The notes under the pieces: generated by a model | What the model saw: the letters and a program-made list of their open reading frames with translations, nothing else | What the model was told of the DNA's origin: nothing | The model's database searches: none | Translations under genes and position numbers: made by a program | From: Bradyrhizobium sp. BR 10289 | GTDB lineage: Bacteria > Pseudomonadota > Alphaproteobacteria > Rhizobiales > Xanthobacteraceae | Assembly: GCF_019455385.1 (NCBI RefSeq) | Contig: NZ_JACOFR010000002.1 | Location: 186,001 to 250,000, forward strand | Length of the DNA stretch: 64,000 nt | Direction: 5' to 3' | Shown here: positions 2,004 through 10,791 of the stretch, piece by piece | Layout of the letters: every line of letters starts with the position of its first letter | Numbering within the stretch: position 1 is the first letter of the stretch

Positions 2004-2035
2004 GCTTGGGAGCCGCCATGGTATGGCTCCCAAGC
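2004..2035 (-). terminator. Hairpin terminator after BA14K gene
   Basis: An 11-bp perfect stem (GCTTGGGAGCC / GGCTCCCAAGC) with a 10-nt loop sits 8 bases past the stop of the BA14K gene and about 80 bases past kup. On the minus strand it is followed by CTTCCTC, a weak pyrimidine tract, so it may serve both convergent genes. Confidence 0.6.
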
Positions 2036-2043
2036 TGTCTCTG

Positions 2044-2424
2044 TTATGGACAGGCGTAACGCTGTCCATCGTAGGCCAAATAGGTTCCCGATGCCGGATC
2101 GTAGGACTTGTAGCGCTGGGCGCAATAGCTCACGGCATCCTGGCGAGCCTGGCTGTTGGCGATCGCGCCGCCGATGATCGCTCCGGCTGCCAGTCCGCCG
2201 ATCACGGCTGCACCGGTCCCGTAGCCTCGATGTCCGTAGCCATGGTGATAGCCGTAATGTCCATGGCGCCAGCCGTGGCGGTACTGGATCGTCTCGACAT
2301 TAGCGCCGCCAGTCATACCGAGCGCACGATCTGCCTGGAGCGGCGCAGCCGAGGCAGATTGCATAGTGGCCAGAGCGGTCGCACCAGCCAGAGCGCCAGC
2401 AAGCAGGGTTCGGAATTGTCGCAT
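2044..2424 (-). CDS. BA14K-family small secreted protein
   Basis: A 126-residue exported protein. An N-terminal signal peptide (cleavage near ASAAPLQ) is followed by a His/Gly/Tyr-rich segment (RHGWRHGHYGYHHGYGHRGY), a glycine-zipper-like hydrophobic stretch (AAVIGGLAAGAIIGGAIA) and the BA14K C-terminus with YCAQRYKSYDPASGTYLAYD and a final CP. The family is named after a Brucella immunoreactive protein with lectin-like activity; the function here is inferred only from similarity. Two cysteines in the C-terminal domain could form a disulphide. A candidate general-stress promoter lies upstream (2457-2482). Confidence 0.85.
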   Translation of the reverse strand: MRQFRTLLAGALAGATALATMQSASAAPLQADRALGMTGGANVETIQYRHGWRHGHYGYHHGYGHRGYGTGAAVIGGLAAGAIIGGAIANSQARQDAVSYCAQRYKSYDPASGTYLAYDGQRYACP

Positions 2425-2456
2425 CGTAAGCTCCGTCGTTTCATGAACACGGAGCC

Positions 2457-2482
2457 AACAACGCGCGTCGTCATGCAGTTCC
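2457..2482 (-). promoter_or_regulatory. Candidate EcfG-type promoter
   Basis: On the minus strand GGAAC is followed after 17 bases by TGTT, 32 bases before the BA14K start codon. The alphaproteobacterial EcfG (general stress sigma factor) consensus is GGAAC-N16/17-CGTT, so there is one mismatch in the -10 element. A second CGTT is present but at a spacing of only 14. This is a pattern match only. Confidence 0.35.
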
Positions 2483-2555
2483 CTGAGATGAAGCAGGTTT
2501 AATCCATCGCGTCACAAGGTCACACGCGCGAATGGAGCCGCGCAAACGGAGCGCA

Positions 2556-5300
2556 TCACTCCCCGTTCGCCTCCCCATTCGCCCCATTCCCGCTCTCCGC
2601 CTCTTCCGTGATGTGCTCGACCGAGACCACGTGCTCGTCCTCGGCGGTGTCGAACACGATCACCCCTTGGGTCGAGCGGCCGGCGATGCGGATGCCTTCG
2701 ACCGGGCAGCGGATCAGCTGGCCCTTGTCCGTGACCAGCATGATTTGATCGGCGTCCTCCACTGGGAAGGACGCGACCAGATTGCCGTTGCGGTTATTGA
2801 CGCTCATGGCGACGATGCCTTTGCCGCCGCGCCCTGTGGTGCGGTACTCGTAGGACGAGGTCCGCTTGCCGTAGCCATTGACGGAGACGGTCAGCACGAC
2901 CTGCTCCTGCGCCGACATCTCGACATAGCGCTCCTGGGCGAGCTGGAAGCTGCCTGAGGTCTCCTCGGCCTCGGCATCGGCGGGGGCCTCTTCCGCACTG
3001 GCTTCACCGGCGACCGCGCGGCGCATCTTCAAATAGGCCGAGCGCTCGTCCGAGGTGGTCTCGACGTGGCGCAGGATCGCCAGCGAGATGACCTTGTCGC
3101 CTTCGCCGAGCGCAATGCCGCGCACGCCCATCGAGGTGCGCCCGGTGAACACGCGCACGTCGGGAACCGGGAAGCGGATGCACTGGCCGCCGGCAGCGGT
3201 CAGCAGCACGTCGTCGCGCTCGGTGCAGATCTGCACGTCGACGATCGCCTCGCCCTCGTCGAGCTTCATCGCGATGATGCCGGAGCGGCGGACGTCGACG
3301 AAGTCGGACAGCTTGTTGCGCCGGACATTGCCGCCGGTGGTGGCGAACATCACGTCGAGATTGCCCCAGGTCGATTCATCCTCGGGCAGCGGCATGATGG
3401 TGGTGATGCGCTCGCCCTGCTCCAGCGGCAGGATGTTGATCAGCGCCTTGCCGCGCGCGTTTGGCGCTGCCATCGGCAGGCGCCAGACCTTTTCCTTGTA
3501 GACCTGGCCACGGGAGGAGAAGAACAGCACCGGCGTGTGCGTCGACGCCACAAACAGGCGGGAGACAAAGTCCTCGTCGCGGGTCTGCATGCCGGCGCGG
3601 CCCTTGCCGCCGCGGCGCTGGGCGCGATAGGCCGACAGCGGCACGCGCTTGACGTAACCGGCGTGCGAGACAGTGACGACCATGTCCTCGCGCTGGATCA
3701 GATCCTCGTCCTCGACTTCGCCCTCCTGCTCCATGATCACGGTGCGGCGCGGGGTGGCGAACTCGGCCTTCACCTCAGCGAGCTCGGTCTTGATGATGTC
3801 GAGGATGCGGGCGCGCGAGCGCAGGATCTCGAGATAGTCGCCGATCTCGCCGGCGAGCTTGGCCAGTTCGCCGCCGATCTCGTCGCGGCCAAGCGCGGTG
3901 AGGCGCGCAAGGCGCAGTTCGAGGATCGCCCTGGCCTGATCCAGCGACAGGCGGATGGTACCGTCCTCGTTGATGCGGTGGCGGGGATCATCGATCAGCG
4001 TGATGATGTCCTCGACGTCGCGCGCCGGCCAGTCGCGTGTCATCAGGGTGTCGCGGGCGACAGCCGGCGTCGGCGAGTGCCTGATGACCTTGATGATCTC
4101 GTCAATATTGGCGACCGCAATGGCGAGGCCGACCTGCTCATGGGCGCGCTCGCGCGCCTTGCGCAGCTTGTACTTGGTGCGGCGGGTGACGACCTGCTCG
4201 CGGAAGCCGACGAAGATCGTCAGCATGTCTTTCAGGTTCATCGTCTGCGGACGGCCGGAATCGAGCGCGACCGCGTTGACGCCGAAAGAGGTCTGGAGCG
4301 GCGTGAACTTGTAGAGCTGGTTCAGCACCACGTCGGGCACCGCATCGCGCTTGAGCTCGACGACGACGCGGTAGCCGTCGCGGTCGGACTCGTCGCGCAG
4401 ATCGGAGATGCCCTCGATCTTCTTTTCCTTGTAGAGCTCGGCGATGCGCTCGACCATCGTCGCCTTGTTCACCTGATACGGGATCTCGGTGATGACGATC
4501 GCCTCGCGATCCTTGCGGATGGTCTCGAACGTGATCTTGCCGCGCATCACGATGGAGCCGCGGCCGAGGTGATAGGCGCTGCGGATGCCCTGGCGTCCAA
4601 GGATGATGCCGCCGGTCGGGAAATCCGGGCCAGGAATGATGTTGTTGAGCTCGTCGATCGTCAACGACGGATTGTCGATCAGGGCCAGACAGGCGTCGAT
4701 GACCTCGCCGAGATTGTGCGGCGGGATGTTGGTGGCCATGCCGACGGCGATGCCGCCGGCGCCGTTGACGAGCAGGTTCGGGAACCGCGCCGGCAGGACC
4801 ACCGGCTCCTTGGTCGAACCGTCGTAGTTGTCCTGGAAGTCGACCGTCTCGTTGTCGATGTCATCGAGCAGCTTCAGCGCGATCTTGGTCAGGCGCGACT
4901 CGGTGTAGCGCATCGCCGCCGGGGGATCGCCGTCAACCGAGCCGAAATTGCCTTGGCCATCCACCAGCAGCTCGCGCATCGAGAACGGCTGCGCCATACG
5001 CACCAAGGCGTCGTAGATCGCCTGGTCGCCATGGGGATGGTATTGGCCCATGACGTCGCCGACGATACCGGCCGACTTCTTGTGCTTCTTGTCGGGCGTG
5101 TAGCCTTCCTCGTTCATCGAGAACAGGATGCGGCGATGCACCGGCTTCAGGCCGTCGCGCGCATCGGGCAGCGCACGCGACACGATCACGCTCATGGCGT
5201 AATCGAGATAGGACTTCTTCATCTCGTCGAGGATGGAGACGGGGCGAATGTCCGAGGGTTGCGCCGGCTGGTCGCCGGGCTTGTTGTCGTCGTCAGCCAA
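2556..5300 (-). CDS. gyrA: DNA gyrase subunit A
   Basis: The breakage-reunion subunit of DNA gyrase, which with GyrB introduces negative supercoils. The 914-residue protein starts its conserved core at [20 protein letters not shown]; the active-site tyrosine is Y132 in AAMRYTESR. The quinolone-contact helix reads [17 protein letters not shown], so the position equal to E. coli Ser83 is Gln93, while the Asp87 equivalent (Asp97) is kept. The C-terminal domain has the GyrA box QRRGGKG and pinwheel blades. An acidic Ala/Glu-rich insertion (about [15 protein letters not shown]) interrupts the C-terminal domain, and the tail is Gly/Asn/Glu-rich. It is transcribed alone. Confidence 0.98.
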
Positions 5301-6569: not shown

Positions 6570-7018
6570 CGCCGCTCTCCACTCCAAATGCCACTGAATT
6601 CGTAAGGCCGGGCCGCGCCGCGCGGTCCCCTGCAACGTGTTGAGGCGACCCTATACGCTTGCGGGCCCCGGTCAGCCCGCCACCGCTCAACTTATCCCCA
6701 CATATAGCATCGACACCTCGTCCGTTCCAGCTTTGTTCTTGCACACCAGTATGGCTGAATGGGAGGGGGCCGATGAGGCTGGAATTGCTCAGAACCGTTT
6801 CGCGACGCAGGGAACCCTGCCGGTTCCCGCGACGAGGAGAAACCATATAACATTCATCAAGTTGCAACCGCTTCATCGAGCGACCGAGTGTTGCATTTCG
6901 GAAACGGACTTCCACCGCTTGCTGGGCTACGATCGAGTCGGAATTGGTTCATATGGGCGCAGAGCCTGATCACCGCTTCGGGGACTTCGAGGAGCGGACC
7001 GAACCCGGGGAGACTGCA
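6570..7018. other. Intergenic region between ssb and outer membrane gene
   Basis: This 449-bp divergent spacer holds the promoters of ssb (leftward) and the outer membrane gene (rightward). I see one clear inverted repeat, GGAACC-N5-GGTTCC at 6811-6827, with no assignable regulator. GGGGAG just before 7019 is the ribosome site of the downstream gene. No coding signal or RNA gene was recognised. Confidence 0.5.
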
Positions 7019-7786
7019 ATGAATAAGATTTTGATTGCTGCGATCGGTGCGGTCGCATTGGGCCTATCGGCTCCCGCAAGCGCGGCGGATCTCGCCGCCC
7101 GTCCCTACACCAAGGCGCCGCCGATGGTCGCCACCGTCTACGACTGGAGCGGCTTCTACATCGGCATCAACGGCGGTGGCGGCTCAAGCCGCAAATGCTG
7201 GGACTTCGTCTCTCCGACCGCCGGCGCGGTCATCGCCGATGGCTGCCACGACGCAGTCGGCGGCACGGTCGGTGGCCAAGTCGGCTATCGCTGGCAATCG
7301 GTCAATTGGGTGTTCGGCCTCGAGGGCCAAGGCAACTGGGCCGATTTTTCGGGTGACAACATCGGCACGTTGAGTGGCTTGCGCAATCGCTCCAAGATCG
7401 ATTCCTTCGGCCTGATCACGGGTCAGGTCGGCTACGCCTGGAACAGCGTGCTGTTCTATGTGAAGGGCGGCGGCGCCGTCGTCGGCGACCGCTACCGGAG
7501 CTACGGTGTCGCCACCGGTCTCGAATTCGACCGTGCCAACGAAACGCGTTGGGGCGGCGCCGTGGGCGCCGGCCTTGAATTCGGTTTCGCGCCGAACTGG
7601 TCGGTGGGTATTGAATATGACCATCTTTTCCTCGGCCATCGTACGATCACTTTCACCGGTTCGGGCAATCTGCCCGGTGGCGCGCTCGGCGTCGCCACCC
7701 GCTCCGAACGCATCGGCCAGGACGTCGATATCGGCCTGATCCGCGTGAACTACCGCTGGGGCGGTCCTGTGATCGCGAAATACTGA
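7019..7786 (+). CDS. Outer membrane beta-barrel protein (Omp25/31-like)
   Basis: A 255-residue outer membrane protein. The signal peptide (MNKILIAAIGAVALGLSAPA ... SAADL) is followed by the mature start ADLAARPYTKAPP and DWSGFYIGINGGGG, which marks the opacity/Omp25-Omp31-like eight-stranded barrel family of rhizobia. The last strand ends VNYRWGGPVIAKY, with a terminal aromatic residue as expected for BAM-dependent insertion. The ATG at 7019 is preceded by GGGGAG; the frame is open upstream but that part lacks a signal peptide. A second, diverged paralogue follows at 8023. Confidence 0.92.
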   Translation: MNKILIAAIGAVALGLSAPASAADLAARPYTKAPPMVATVYDWSGFYIGINGGGGSSRKCWDFVSPTAGAVIADGCHDAVGGTVGGQVGYRWQSVNWVFGLEGQGNWADFSGDNIGTLSGLRNRSKIDSFGLITGQVGYAWNSVLFYVKGGGAVVGDRYRSYGVATGLEFDRANETRWGGAVGAGLEFGFAPNWSVGIEYDHLFLGHRTITFTGSGNLPGGALGVATRSERIGQDVDIGLIRVNYRWGGPVIAKY

Positions 7787-7812
7787 TATCTCTCTGATCA
7801 CACTTGGAAATC

Positions 7813-7838
7813 AAAGGCCGGCCTCGCGCCGGCCTTTT
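7813..7838 (+). terminator. Rho-independent terminator
   Basis: A 10-bp perfect stem AAAGGCCGGC / GCCGGCCTTT with a 5-nt loop (CTCGC) lies 27 bases after the stop of the first outer membrane gene and is followed by T residues. The same stem recurs after the second outer membrane gene. Confidence 0.9.
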
Positions 7839-8022
7839 GCTTGAGAGTTCCATTTCCGGAACAATCGATCAGCGATTATTACGTTTTGTGACTGTTGTGG
7901 CTTTTGAGAGACTCAACTTACGGCTTCGCTGGTGTAAGCACGCGTGAGTTGGACCGCAGCGTCCGATCCTGCTTCCGACGCACGGAAGTCAAAATAGAAA
8001 CTGGGACTGGGATTTGTTGAAA

Positions 8023-8682
8023 ATGAAGAAGATTCTCTTGGCTTCGGCCGCTCTGATCGCTCTCACCGGCGCTGCTTCGGCTGCCGATCTGGCGGCTCGC
8101 CCCTACACCAAGGCTCCGGTCGCTGTGGCCTCGGTCTACAACTGGACCGGATTCTACCTCGGTCTCGTCGGTGGCGGCGCCTGGGAAGACTCGGGCAGCC
8201 CGCGCATGGAAGGTGGCTTCGTCGGCGGCACCGCCGGCTACAACTGGCAGACCGGCAACGTCGTGTTCGGCGTCGAGGCCGATGGCGCCTGGGCTGACGT
8301 GAACGCCTCGGCGACCGCGCTCGGCATCACGGCGACCTCCAAGACCGACGCGCTCGGCACCGTCCGCGGCCGCATCGGCTACGCCGTCAATCAGGTCCTG
8401 TTCTACGGCACCGGCGGTTACGCCTGGATCGACAACAAGATCACGCTCTCGGCGCTCGGCGTGAGCGTTTCCGACAGCAAGTGGCACTCGGGGTGGACCG
8501 TCGGCGCGGGCGTCGAAGCCTTCATCGCTCCGCAGTGGTCGATCAAGGGCGAGTACCTCTATCGCAGCCTCGGCGGCGAGACCTATTTCTCGGGCACCCT
8601 GCCCACCGGCACGCTCAACCTCCACACCGTGCAGTTCGGCGTGAACTATCACTTCAACGGCCCGATCGTCGCGAAGTACTGA
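8023..8682 (+). CDS. Outer membrane beta-barrel protein, second paralogue
   Basis: A 219-residue barrel protein. The signal peptide MKKILLASAALIALTGAASA is followed by ADLAARPYTKAPVAVASVYN and WTGFYLGLVGGGAW, the same mature start as the gene at 7019, and the protein ends VNYHFNGPIVAKY. It is shorter than its neighbour, mainly in the loop regions. The ATG at 8023 opens a clean signal peptide; in-frame TTG codons just upstream are less likely starts. Each copy has its own spacer and terminator, so they are probably transcribed separately. Confidence 0.92.
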   Translation: MKKILLASAALIALTGAASAADLAARPYTKAPVAVASVYNWTGFYLGLVGGGAWEDSGSPRMEGGFVGGTAGYNWQTGNVVFGVEADGAWADVNASATALGITATSKTDALGTVRGRIGYAVNQVLFYGTGGYAWIDNKITLSALGVSVSDSKWHSGWTVGAGVEAFIAPQWSIKGEYLYRSLGGETYFSGTLPTGTLNLHTVQFGVNYHFNGPIVAKY

Positions 8683-8710
8683 TCGTCGCGACCGACGCCA
8701 CATCGTCACG

Positions 8711-8740
8711 AAAGGCCGGCCTTGCGCCGGCCTTTTTGTT
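8711..8740 (+). terminator. Rho-independent terminator
   Basis: The stem AAAGGCCGGC / GCCGGCCTTT with loop CTTGC and a following T run lies 28 bases after the second outer membrane gene. The stem is identical to the one at 7813, with one base changed in the loop. Confidence 0.92.
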
Positions 8741-8764: not shown

Positions 8765-10495
8765 CTACATCAGGCCCACCGTTCCGAAGCCGGTCTTGAC
8801 CGCTCTGGCTTCGCTGCTCTCGGCGCCGTGCGATTTCACCGCCGTGTCGTAGATGATCTTTGCAGCCGTGCGCATGTCCAGATGCGGCTTGAACCGCTCG
8901 AGGCTGTCGATCCAGATCTTTCCGGCAACCTCCGAGCCGATCTGAATTGCGGTCTGGTAGAAGGCGCGGTTTGGAATTCCGGAGTTGATGTGAACACCGC
9001 CATTGTCATCGGTCGCACTGGATGAGAGCACGACGAGCTTGCTGAAATGATCGGGCTGCGCATCCTTCCCCAGGATCGGGTCGTCGTAGGCCGTGCCCGG
9101 AGCCTTCAATGACTTCAGCGGCCGCACATCCGCAGGATCGTTCTTGCCGGTGACCCAGGACACCGCGCCGGGAGCGATGATCCAATCCGCCGCCTGCGCC
9201 GTCTGGCCCTGCATCTTCTGCTTGATCAGCGACGTCAGGACGTCCGTGTAGGACTGTACGATCGCACCCTCCTGTCCCGAATATTGGTACTTCCATCGCT
9301 TCTCGATGAACGGGAACGTCGCTTCGTGATAGACGATATCGGGGATGTCCTGGACCTGCGGCGGCGCGTTGATCTTCTCGCCGTCCCAATAGGCATTACG
9401 ATAATCGTTGGCGAGCAGGTTGATGTCCGGCGTAGCCAGGTCCAACCCGAACAGGCCGTTGAGGATGCGGGTCGCATCCGCAGCGTGCTTCTTCATCTTC
9501 TGCATGGCCAGCTGATCGCGGTCGGGGGCCGCCTTTGCGACCAGCGCTTCCAGCGCGGCGATCTTCGTCGTCAGGCTCTGCGCGTCAAATTTGGCATCCT
9601 TGGATGGCTGGACCCGACGATACAGCGCGAGCGCCCGCTCGAAATTTTCCGCCCCTTCGGCGATCGAGGCCGCGAAATAGGTCAGCTCGTTCCATCCGGA
9701 CATACGATCCGTCAGCGGCCCGACCATGACGAAGATGCGCTCGAAATCGGATTTGGCCGCGACCTTGTAGGTGATGACGCGCCGGTTGATGCGCGCGATC
9801 TCACCGATCGAGTTGACCAGATTGGCAAACTCATCGTCCTGCAGCTCGCCGAACTCGGGACTGTCCTTGGCCCATCGCCGGTGGATCAGCGCCAGGGCGA
9901 TGGCGTCAGCGACCGATTTCTCGGTTGCCTCGTCGATCGTCATCCAGAGCGGCTTCGTCTTGCCGAGCCCCAGCGCATCGATGTTGCCCGCAACCGTCGC
10001 CGATTTTCCGTCCCAGGAGACGGCAAACGACAGCGTCCGATCCTGCGCGAACCAGCGCTGGATGGTCGGCAGCAATCCCCCGACGTCGACCCCGCCGACC
10101 TTGACGTCGATATTGGTCGGCTCGAACAATTGCGCGTCCAGCACGGCTGTCTTCGGCGTTCCCAGGATGCCGGCCGTCACGCCGTGGGGAACGCCGTCCG
10201 GAGCGGCCGCGGCCGCCTCCTGCTTCTCGAGTCTGGCCTGCTGCTTCTCTTCCTTGAGCGAGGACTGGGACTGTTGCAGTTCCCATTCGCGGGTGTGGAG
10301 GCGCGCGATGATCAATCGCGCCAGTGTCTCGCCCTCCGCAGCGGCATTGCCGGTTCCTCCAATGACCTTGACCGGCGCAATCACGAGGTCGCCACCAGCA
10401 ACGGCCTGGAAGATGGCGGTCGCAAACCAGATGTTGCAGGCCAGTAGCACTAGGCCGGCCGCTATGAAAAACGCAATCTTCGCAAAGATTTCCAT
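8765..10495 (-). CDS. Membrane-anchored protein with degenerate thermolysin-like domain
   Basis: A 576-residue protein of unknown function. An N-terminal membrane helix (IAFFIAAGLVLLACNIWFA) is followed by a Gln/Glu/Lys-rich coiled segment (near LQQSQSSLKEEKQQARLEK), a middle region with helical repeat-like content and a C-terminal part aligning with M4 (thermolysin) peptidases. HEATF at residues 390-394 replaces HELTH, and exactly 24 residues after the first His the zinc ligand Glu is Gln414 in GAIVQSYTD (thermolysin GAINEAISD). The catalytic-type His is kept in DNGGVHINSGI (His502), as is NRAFY and the end VKTGFGTVGLM. Two of three zinc ligands are thus lost, so it is probably not an active metallopeptidase. 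The ATG at 10495 is preferred over an upstream TTG. Confidence 0.75.
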   Translation of the reverse strand: MEIFAKIAFFIAAGLVLLACNIWFATAIFQAVAGGDLVIAPVKVIGGTGNAAAEGETLARLIIARLHTREWELQQSQSSLKEEKQQARLEKQEAAAAAPDGVPHGVTAGILGTPKTAVLDAQLFEPTNIDVKVGGVDVGGLLPTIQRWFAQDRTLSFAVSWDGKSATVAGNIDALGLGKTKPLWMTIDEATEKSVADAIALALIHRRWAKDSPEFGELQDDEFANLVNSIGEIARINRRVITYKVAAKSDFERIFVMVGPLTDRMSGWNELTYFAASIAEGAENFERALALYRRVQPSKDAKFDAQSLTTKIAALEALVAKAAPDRDQLAMQKMKKHAADATRILNGLFGLDLATPDINLLANDYRNAYWDGEKINAPPQVQDIPDIVYHEATFPFIEKRWKYQYSGQEGAIVQSYTDVLTSLIKQKMQGQTAQAADWIIAPGAVSWVTGKNDPADVRPLKSLKAPGTAYDDPILGKDAQPDHFSKLVVLSSSATDDNGGVHINSGIPNRAFYQTAIQIGSEVAGKIWIDSLERFKPHLDMRTAAKIIYDTAVKSHGAESSEARAVKTGFGTVGLM

Positions 10496-10791
10496 CGCGA
10501 AGGACCAGAAATGGATGTGCAGCAATGCGTTTAGTCTAGCACAATGCAATCTAGCCTAGTAGCCGCAAACGGTGCCCGCATGGAAAGCGGAGGCCGCGAC
10601 GCCCGTCCTCCTGCCAGATGCCGCCAGCGCGCCAACAATCCGTTGACGATTCGCAAGTCCCACTGGAAATCCGTCCTCGTTCTTCCTACGTTCGCTGACA
10701 ACCCCATCGGCGCCGATCCCGGTTCCGGGCGAAGCGTGCCTCTTCATTGGCGCGATCGCGCAGCTTTTGGGATTCCTTGAGGGCAACCCGG

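Follow-up and report, generated by a model that had tools for sequence, protein, structure and literature searches.

Metallo-pseudopeptidases have, to our knowledge, mostly been studied in eukaryotes. A review likewise presents them, in its accessible sections, as mostly eukaryotic and describes the M12 ADAMs and M14 members as non-catalytic metallopeptidase folds kept for interactions; the terms 'thermolysin' and 'family M4' are absent from these sections (PMC11266112). The clear bacterial pseudoprotease found in the literature searched, as far as its accessible text goes, is of the CspC type: CspC of Clostridioides difficile, a pseudoprotease resembling subtilisin, has been described as sensing germinants (accessible parts of PMC6636752 and PMC6199464). 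No M4 pseudopeptidase and no membrane-anchored bacterial one was recognised in the open-access literature searched, and no description was found there of the architecture reported here, a membrane anchor followed by an N-terminal module (N-module) and an M4 core with an incomplete zinc site.

Protealysin of Serratia proteamaculans (structure 2vqx) is an active zinc enzyme. According to the accessible parts of the sources, it has an inactive precursor form (PMC6778150), is intracellular, shares one operon with emfourin and cleaves RecA and FtsZ, and it has been proposed to act as an effector, emfourin being the matching immunity protein (PMC9505478). The protein described here resembles it in the M4 core and shares the NAxW and GGVHxNSGIPN motifs with the closest catalytic-type M4s of the genus. 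It differs from protealysin in lacking two zinc ligands and an adjoining emfourin gene and in carrying an anchor and a module of about 300 residues in front of the core. From the eukaryotic pseudometallopeptidases (M12 ADAMs, M14) it differs in family. Its closest working analogue is most likely CspC, also a dead bacterial peptidase fold described as a sensor, although CspC has a serine-peptidase fold, unlike the M4 core, and is soluble and found in spores.

The gene lies at 8765..10495 (-) of the window, the whole stretch of 64,000 nucleotides of Bradyrhizobium sp. BR 10289 that was analysed and to which all coordinates refer. It encodes 576 amino acids plus stop from an ATG start, is free of internal stops in the ORF translation and has three further full-length orthologues (in genomes G007, G047 and G645); an alternative TTG start upstream at 10549 is possible. 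An N-terminal membrane anchor (about residues 7-31; 10403..10477, -) was recognised from hydropathy and from the aligned start of the orthologues. Cys20 within it is invariant in the orthologues, and the hydropathy signal is clear for the window protein and that of G645 and weaker for G007. The N-module (residues ~101-300; 9596..10195, -) was defined by homology to a protein of genome G025 with a shuffle control (see below), residues ~122-300 being the portion common to both. Pfam reported no family above cut-off in the region of about 300 residues between the membrane helix and the core. The original prediction had placed an N-terminal helix before a long helical middle domain. The helix was borne out by hydropathy, but the middle is not simply helical in the full-length model, where a long helix is followed by a mixed alpha/beta part and then more helices (pLDDT 42, low confidence). 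This model, made from three sequences, was discarded as a basis for fold claims. The thermolysin-like core occupies residues 318-576 (8768..9544, -), as placed by Pfam, phmmer, AF2, Foldseek and structure overlay.

The window protein is homologous to M4 peptidases. Peptidase_M4_C (PF02868) matched residues 404-574 (E=3.3e-25) and scored 89.3 bits where the curated cut-off is 24.4, in agreement with the M4-like C-terminal half proposed at the outset. In phmmer searches protealysin was the best solved relative (E=1.5e-28, residues 362-546), and thermolysin matched with E=2.4e-8. PF01447, the model of the N-terminal part of the M4 catalytic domain, had no match in the window protein up to E=1 and does match a catalytic-type paralogue. 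The protealysin propeptide model (PF16485) had no match either; it is a short model and stayed below cut-off in the catalytic-type paralogue too. AF2 predicted residues 318-576 with pLDDT 91.1 and pTM 0.90 from an alignment of 11 further sequences, two orthologues and nine catalytic-type relatives from viral contigs, and these nine lean the model towards the M4 fold. The homology of the core was established without the model, because the sequence match alone suffices. The predicted core overlaid best on protealysin (Z 29.7, 2.4 A, 242 residues) and also on residues 58-316 of thermolysin 1kei (Z 28.1, 2.0 A, 234 residues), so that the likeness to thermolysin is not spurious. When compared with a viral structure library, the core model gave one clear M4-like match, the unnamed A0A386K830 (E=1.1e-12; next 0.028).

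Two of the three zinc ligands are replaced in this core. HELTH of thermolysin reads HEATF (residues 390-394; 9314..9328, -), with Phe for the zinc ligand His146 (Trp in two orthologues), and Gln414 (9254..9256, -) replaces the ligand Glu166. Gln414 lies exactly 24 residues beyond His390, a spacing that we take to be that from His142 to Glu166 in thermolysin numbering. Both replacements had been predicted and were recovered in the translation and the alignment; likewise, His502 in DNGGVHINSGI (residues 497-507; 8975..9007, -; His231 and Asp226 equivalents kept), NRAFY and GTVGLM were all found in the translation. The ungapped spacing between the two zinc motifs, also part of the prediction, holds for the window protein but not for two orthologues, which have one extra residue there.

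The same losses are found throughout the family. The zinc motif is HExx[FW] in all four orthologous proteins (HEATF, HEAAF, HEVAW and HEVAW), and Gln stands at the Glu-ligand position in each of them, whereas Glu166 is present in 26/26 catalytic-type relatives. The second zinc His has thus become an aromatic residue in both lineages and Glu has become Gln in all four. A survey of 265 genomes of the genus found HExxH or the Glu ligand in 0/4 orthologues. The protein is therefore not an M4 member in the enzyme sense, and going by its sequence it very probably does not catalyse. The 26 relatives were chosen by a script requiring HExxH, so that H142, E143 and H146 are invariant among them by construction; all 26 loci supplied had the motif and none was dropped. 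Repeat loci of the same genes had been omitted, and one subfamily contributes eight near-copies to the set of 26.

We also compared the positions that surround the lost zinc site, using position names that we take from thermolysin for the active-site residues. In all four pseudopeptidases the residues at 112, 113, 115, 142, 143, 157, 170 and 231 are still N, A, W, H, E, Y, D and H. The first of these fall in NAYW (residues 367-370; 9386..9397, -), the kept substrate-binding edge strand, which reads NAxW in the 26 catalytic-type relatives. Arg203 is kept in three of the four (Lys in the window copy), and Asn165, beside the lost Glu ligand, is changed in all of them. There are 30 columns in which 25 or all of the 26 relatives agree; 4/4 pseudopeptidases retain 16 of these columns, and the other 14 are changed or deleted. 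Near-invariant columns were kept at 7/8 non-zinc cleft positions versus 8/19 elsewhere (one-sided Fisher p=0.038), a comparison in which the four sequences amount in effect to two lineages and the cleft positions were chosen by us from the biochemistry of thermolysin. Preferential retention of cleft residues is thus suggestive, not strong, and selection seems to act on the substrate cleft as well as on the fold. The original prediction of selection on fold rather than catalysis is supported as to non-catalysis and is refined here, since the non-zinc cleft residues are also largely kept.

To trace the distribution of the family, the 265 genomes of the genus were searched with a profile made from alignment A2 of the middle module. 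Five genomes matched, namely the window's own, G007, G047, G025 and G645; four of them had supplied rows of the profile and G645 was new. The M4-type protein is encoded in four of these genomes, with a full-length open frame in each, and the G025 protein differs. In a pattern search of a genome collection, a method that can miss relatives, 0/25 pattern matches were confirmed with the window protein as sole query, and two orthologues were confirmed among 101 pattern matches with the N-module alignment. By sequence, their carriers Bradyrhizobium guangdongense SM32 and B. liaoningense SZCCT0420 are G645 and G007, respectively. The N-module had no match at E<=0.01 in plasmids and phages, and 0/54 pattern matches were confirmed in viral contigs. 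Among 385 genomes of the class, four marginal matches (E 0.0050-0.0097) were seen besides the window's genome and were taken as chance because their ORFs, judged by eye, look unrelated; a search of 339 phylum genomes gave, at E<=0.001, the module of the window's genome and no other. The genus, class and phylum sets are samples that partly overlap. When used alone, the M4 part matched 42 plasmid records, none of which covered 80 % of the protein.

Whole-gene dN/dS was 0.14 (window-G645), 0.24 (window-G007), 0.23 (G645-G007) and 0.11 (G007-G047), compared with 0.21-0.30 in the neighbouring outer-membrane-protein (omp) gene and 0.02-0.06 in uvrA. The pseudopeptidase gene is constrained, roughly as the neighbouring omp gene.

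Active M4 enzymes and their inhibitors were also searched for. All four carriers have at least one catalytic-type M4 gene and an emfourin gene. In the window's genome the M4 subfamily closest to the pseudopeptidase core is missing; its one M4 gene is of a more distant kind and is accompanied by an emfourin gene. Emfourin (PF20242) gave seven hits in six of the seven genomes searched, all beside catalytic-type M4 genes and none at the pseudopeptidase locus. The missing inhibitor gene fits with a protein that does not cut. As a separate observation, a second M4 subfamily of the genus (L008, L010-L014, L017 and L018; e.g. G000:C5:28749-29288) keeps HELTH and NES and has PHY[SA]SG where thermolysin has GGVHxNSG (six sequences inspected); an emfourin gene adjoins it in both genomes examined (G000 and G047).

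The reading that we favour, at somewhat better than an even chance, is a membrane-anchored pseudopeptidase which binds a peptide or protein and serves as receptor or scaffold. That the protein is a pseudopeptidase had been proposed before, and the loss of HExxH and the Glu ligand from the orthologues (0/4 retain them) together with the thermolysin-like predicted fold supports it. Among the roles then suggested (inhibitor, receptor or scaffold), receptor or scaffold fits best, while nothing specific speaks for an inhibitor of a partner protease because the closest M4 subfamily is absent and no emfourin gene stands beside the locus. One N-terminal helix would hold a module of probably mixed fold, with the M4-type core and its incomplete zinc site behind. 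Phe or Trp probably fills the former metal cavity. Most likely, a peptide or an exposed segment of a protein is still bound in the cleft and left uncut, because the substrate strand and the Glu143, His231, Tyr157 and Asp170 positions are kept; judged from these residues, the chance that the cleft is used for binding is about even or slightly better. Binding may be passed on to the membrane-side module or may be used for tethering a partner, and the signal-anchor pattern hints that the core could face the periplasm. A bacterial M4 protein without zinc ligands and with most of its cleft kept would be a natural version of the thermolysin fold that binds but does not cut. Since it would be a natural non-cutting form of a well-studied metalloprotease fold, its ligand is directly searchable.

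Other explanations were weighed against the receptor or scaffold reading. The core may be a structural leftover; importance would then rest with the anchor and the N-module alone, and the dead core would be carried along as a stable passenger or dimerisation part with a non-binding cleft. This agrees with the 14 of 30 near-invariant columns that are changed or deleted and with a dN/dS that is lower in the N-module than in the M4-like part for window-G645 (0.11 vs 0.19) and window-G007 (0.22 vs 0.25). However, the order is reversed for G645-G007 (0.22 vs 0.21) and G007-G047 (0.15 vs 0.09), dN/dS of the core is low throughout (0.09-0.25) and cleft residues are preferentially kept, and we consider a leftover unlikely. 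Outright decay of the gene is extremely improbable. Its presence is patchy (4/265 genomes of the genus), but the full-length frame is intact in 4/4, both lineages have the same ligand losses, and these losses with a dN/dS of 0.11-0.24 therefore argue against the decay of one copy; the simply decayed copy that had been named as an alternative fails with the survey.

It was also considered that the protein is a decoy or regulator of active M4 proteases, whose dead core mimics them and soaks up their emfourin, propeptide or substrates, perhaps as immunity in contests between bacteria. Protealysin, the nearest solved relative of the core, which cleaves RecA and FtsZ and is a proposed effector with emfourin as the proposed immunity protein (accessible parts of PMC9505478), would suit such a role, as would the catalytic-type M4 and emfourin genes of each of the four carriers. 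This co-occurrence is unspecific, however: G012 and G088, which match in the M4 part only, also have M4 and emfourin. In addition, the closest M4 subfamily is absent from the window's genome, which has the one distant M4 with its own emfourin, in the tree a long branch (2.07 changes per column) separates the core from all active relatives, and a decoy leaves the membrane anchor and the N-module unexplained. We regard this explanation as distinctly improbable. Less probable still, and very unlikely, is that the protein hydrolyses by a different chemistry or at a different metal site through the retained Glu391, His502 and Asp497: the equivalents of Glu143, His231 and Asp226 are invariant in 4/4, but only one zinc ligand is left, the other two are replaced by an aromatic residue and Gln, and none of the positions examined showed an evident substitute ligand. 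We know of no M4-fold enzyme that works without a metal.

The N-module of the putative receptor or scaffold occurs on a second protein. The G025 protein (L007:544-2811, -; G025:C1:7866743-7869010) has 756 residues and resembles the M4-type proteins in having the same N-module behind membrane helices; it differs in that it has four hydrophobic segments near the N-terminus, by hydropathy, and a weakly subtilisin-like C-terminus instead of the M4 core. Residues 122-332 of the window protein matched it with E=5.9e-8 (reverse search E=1.1e-8 and 3.7e-7), and a profile of the four M4-type N-termini found it with E=3.4e-11, the best of 3000 shuffles reaching 0.027. The hhalign probability of the N-module against the G025 protein was 96 %. 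By these alignments the N-module link between the M4-type proteins and the G025 protein is shown.

The C-terminus of the G025 protein had no Pfam match. With a profile of 27 subtilisin (S8) sequences, mostly one close subfamily, the C-terminal part ranked first among 3147 sequences (E=0.0027, 14.4 bits with bias 5.3) and the whole protein second (E=0.015); the best shuffle was 0.069. The set searched consisted of 3000 shuffles, 145 real ORFs and the G025 protein as a whole and as a part. The profile was built from 36 S8 loci, of which 34 were used (two of another type, by eye, were omitted) and seven of the 34 were then dropped, as the motif rule found no domain in them. With a five-sequence S8 profile the G025 protein ranked second of 2002 and was not separated from the shuffles, and hhalign gave probabilities of 42 % (five-sequence profile) and 11 % (27-sequence profile). 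In the weak profile alignment, which is affected by composition, GSP of the G025 protein is aligned with GTS of active subtilisins, which would put Pro in place of the catalytic Ser. A dead subtilisin is thus a plausible but unproven identity for this C-terminus. MHETase/tannase-like proteins were matched as well (PDB, E=1.6e-5 over about 100 residues). This identity was judged to be chance or composition, though by E-value it is stronger than the subtilisin link, and was set aside in view of the longer collinear stretch covered by the match to the subtilisin profile (profile positions 69-240). An ORF of G048 that looks tannase/MHETase-like by eye (L039, G048:C28:64600-64908) shares 39 % over 102 residues with the G025 end (E=2.1e-6). 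PADLOC models of defence systems matched neither the window pseudopeptidase nor the G025 protein.

Since the N-module is also found on another, possibly dead peptidase fold, it may be the part that stays constant, with ligands bound by the former peptidase. A wider and rather doubtful reading is a small family of bacterial membrane receptors made of one conserved module and dead peptidases of different clans (M4 and S8), which would be interchangeable peptide binders swapped between strains at a fixed chromosomal site; jointly with this, and equally doubtful, every such peptidase would have lost its catalytic centre, while the cleft would be kept in the M4 type at least. If the module does join a second dead peptidase fold, bacteria would recruit peptidase folds as receptor domains.

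In all four carriers the pseudopeptidase gene lies between the omp gene and uvrA and is divergent from uvrA. The uvrA upstream regions of 20 genus members that lack the gene showed no trace of it at E<=1e-3, and in the four of these non-carriers that were inspected the terminator on the omp side is followed by the uvrA upstream region within tens of bases. In the window, the left edge of the insertion site is a terminator-like site of the omp gene (8710..8736, +), found by a scan whose count was no better than in shuffles. The divergent intergenic region holds GTTC-N7-GTTC (10679..10693, +), a site resembling a LexA box, which is also present in the four non-carriers inspected; four matches were found in the window versus 1.46 expected by chance. 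The box likely belongs to uvrA, and the pseudopeptidase gene may share it.

Synonymous divergence of the pseudopeptidase gene was 1.26 for window-G007 vs 0.36-0.69 in four neighbouring genes (values above 1 approach saturation and are approximate) and 0.63 for window-G645 vs 0.34-0.55 in four neighbours, while for G007-G047 it was 0.19, below the 0.24-0.53 of the neighbours. By uvrA score against the window, 24 non-carriers outrank the carrier G007 in a set of 60 genomes without G645. From this pattern we infer that old alleles seem to have been exchanged or lost at one site, in the fashion of accessory genes. One of the 20 non-carriers, G027, has a quinoprotein/PQQ-dehydrogenase-like gene (by eye) at the omp-uvrA site (G027:C1:4706321-4711420, ORF 2024-4462, -, in coordinates after turning locus L084), and the site may be an insertion hotspot because another gene is held there. 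Tandem outer-membrane beta-barrel genes lie beside ssb and uvrA at 6944-8682 of the window, and the copy number of the beta-barrel genes in the uvrA upstream region varies between strains (20 relatives).
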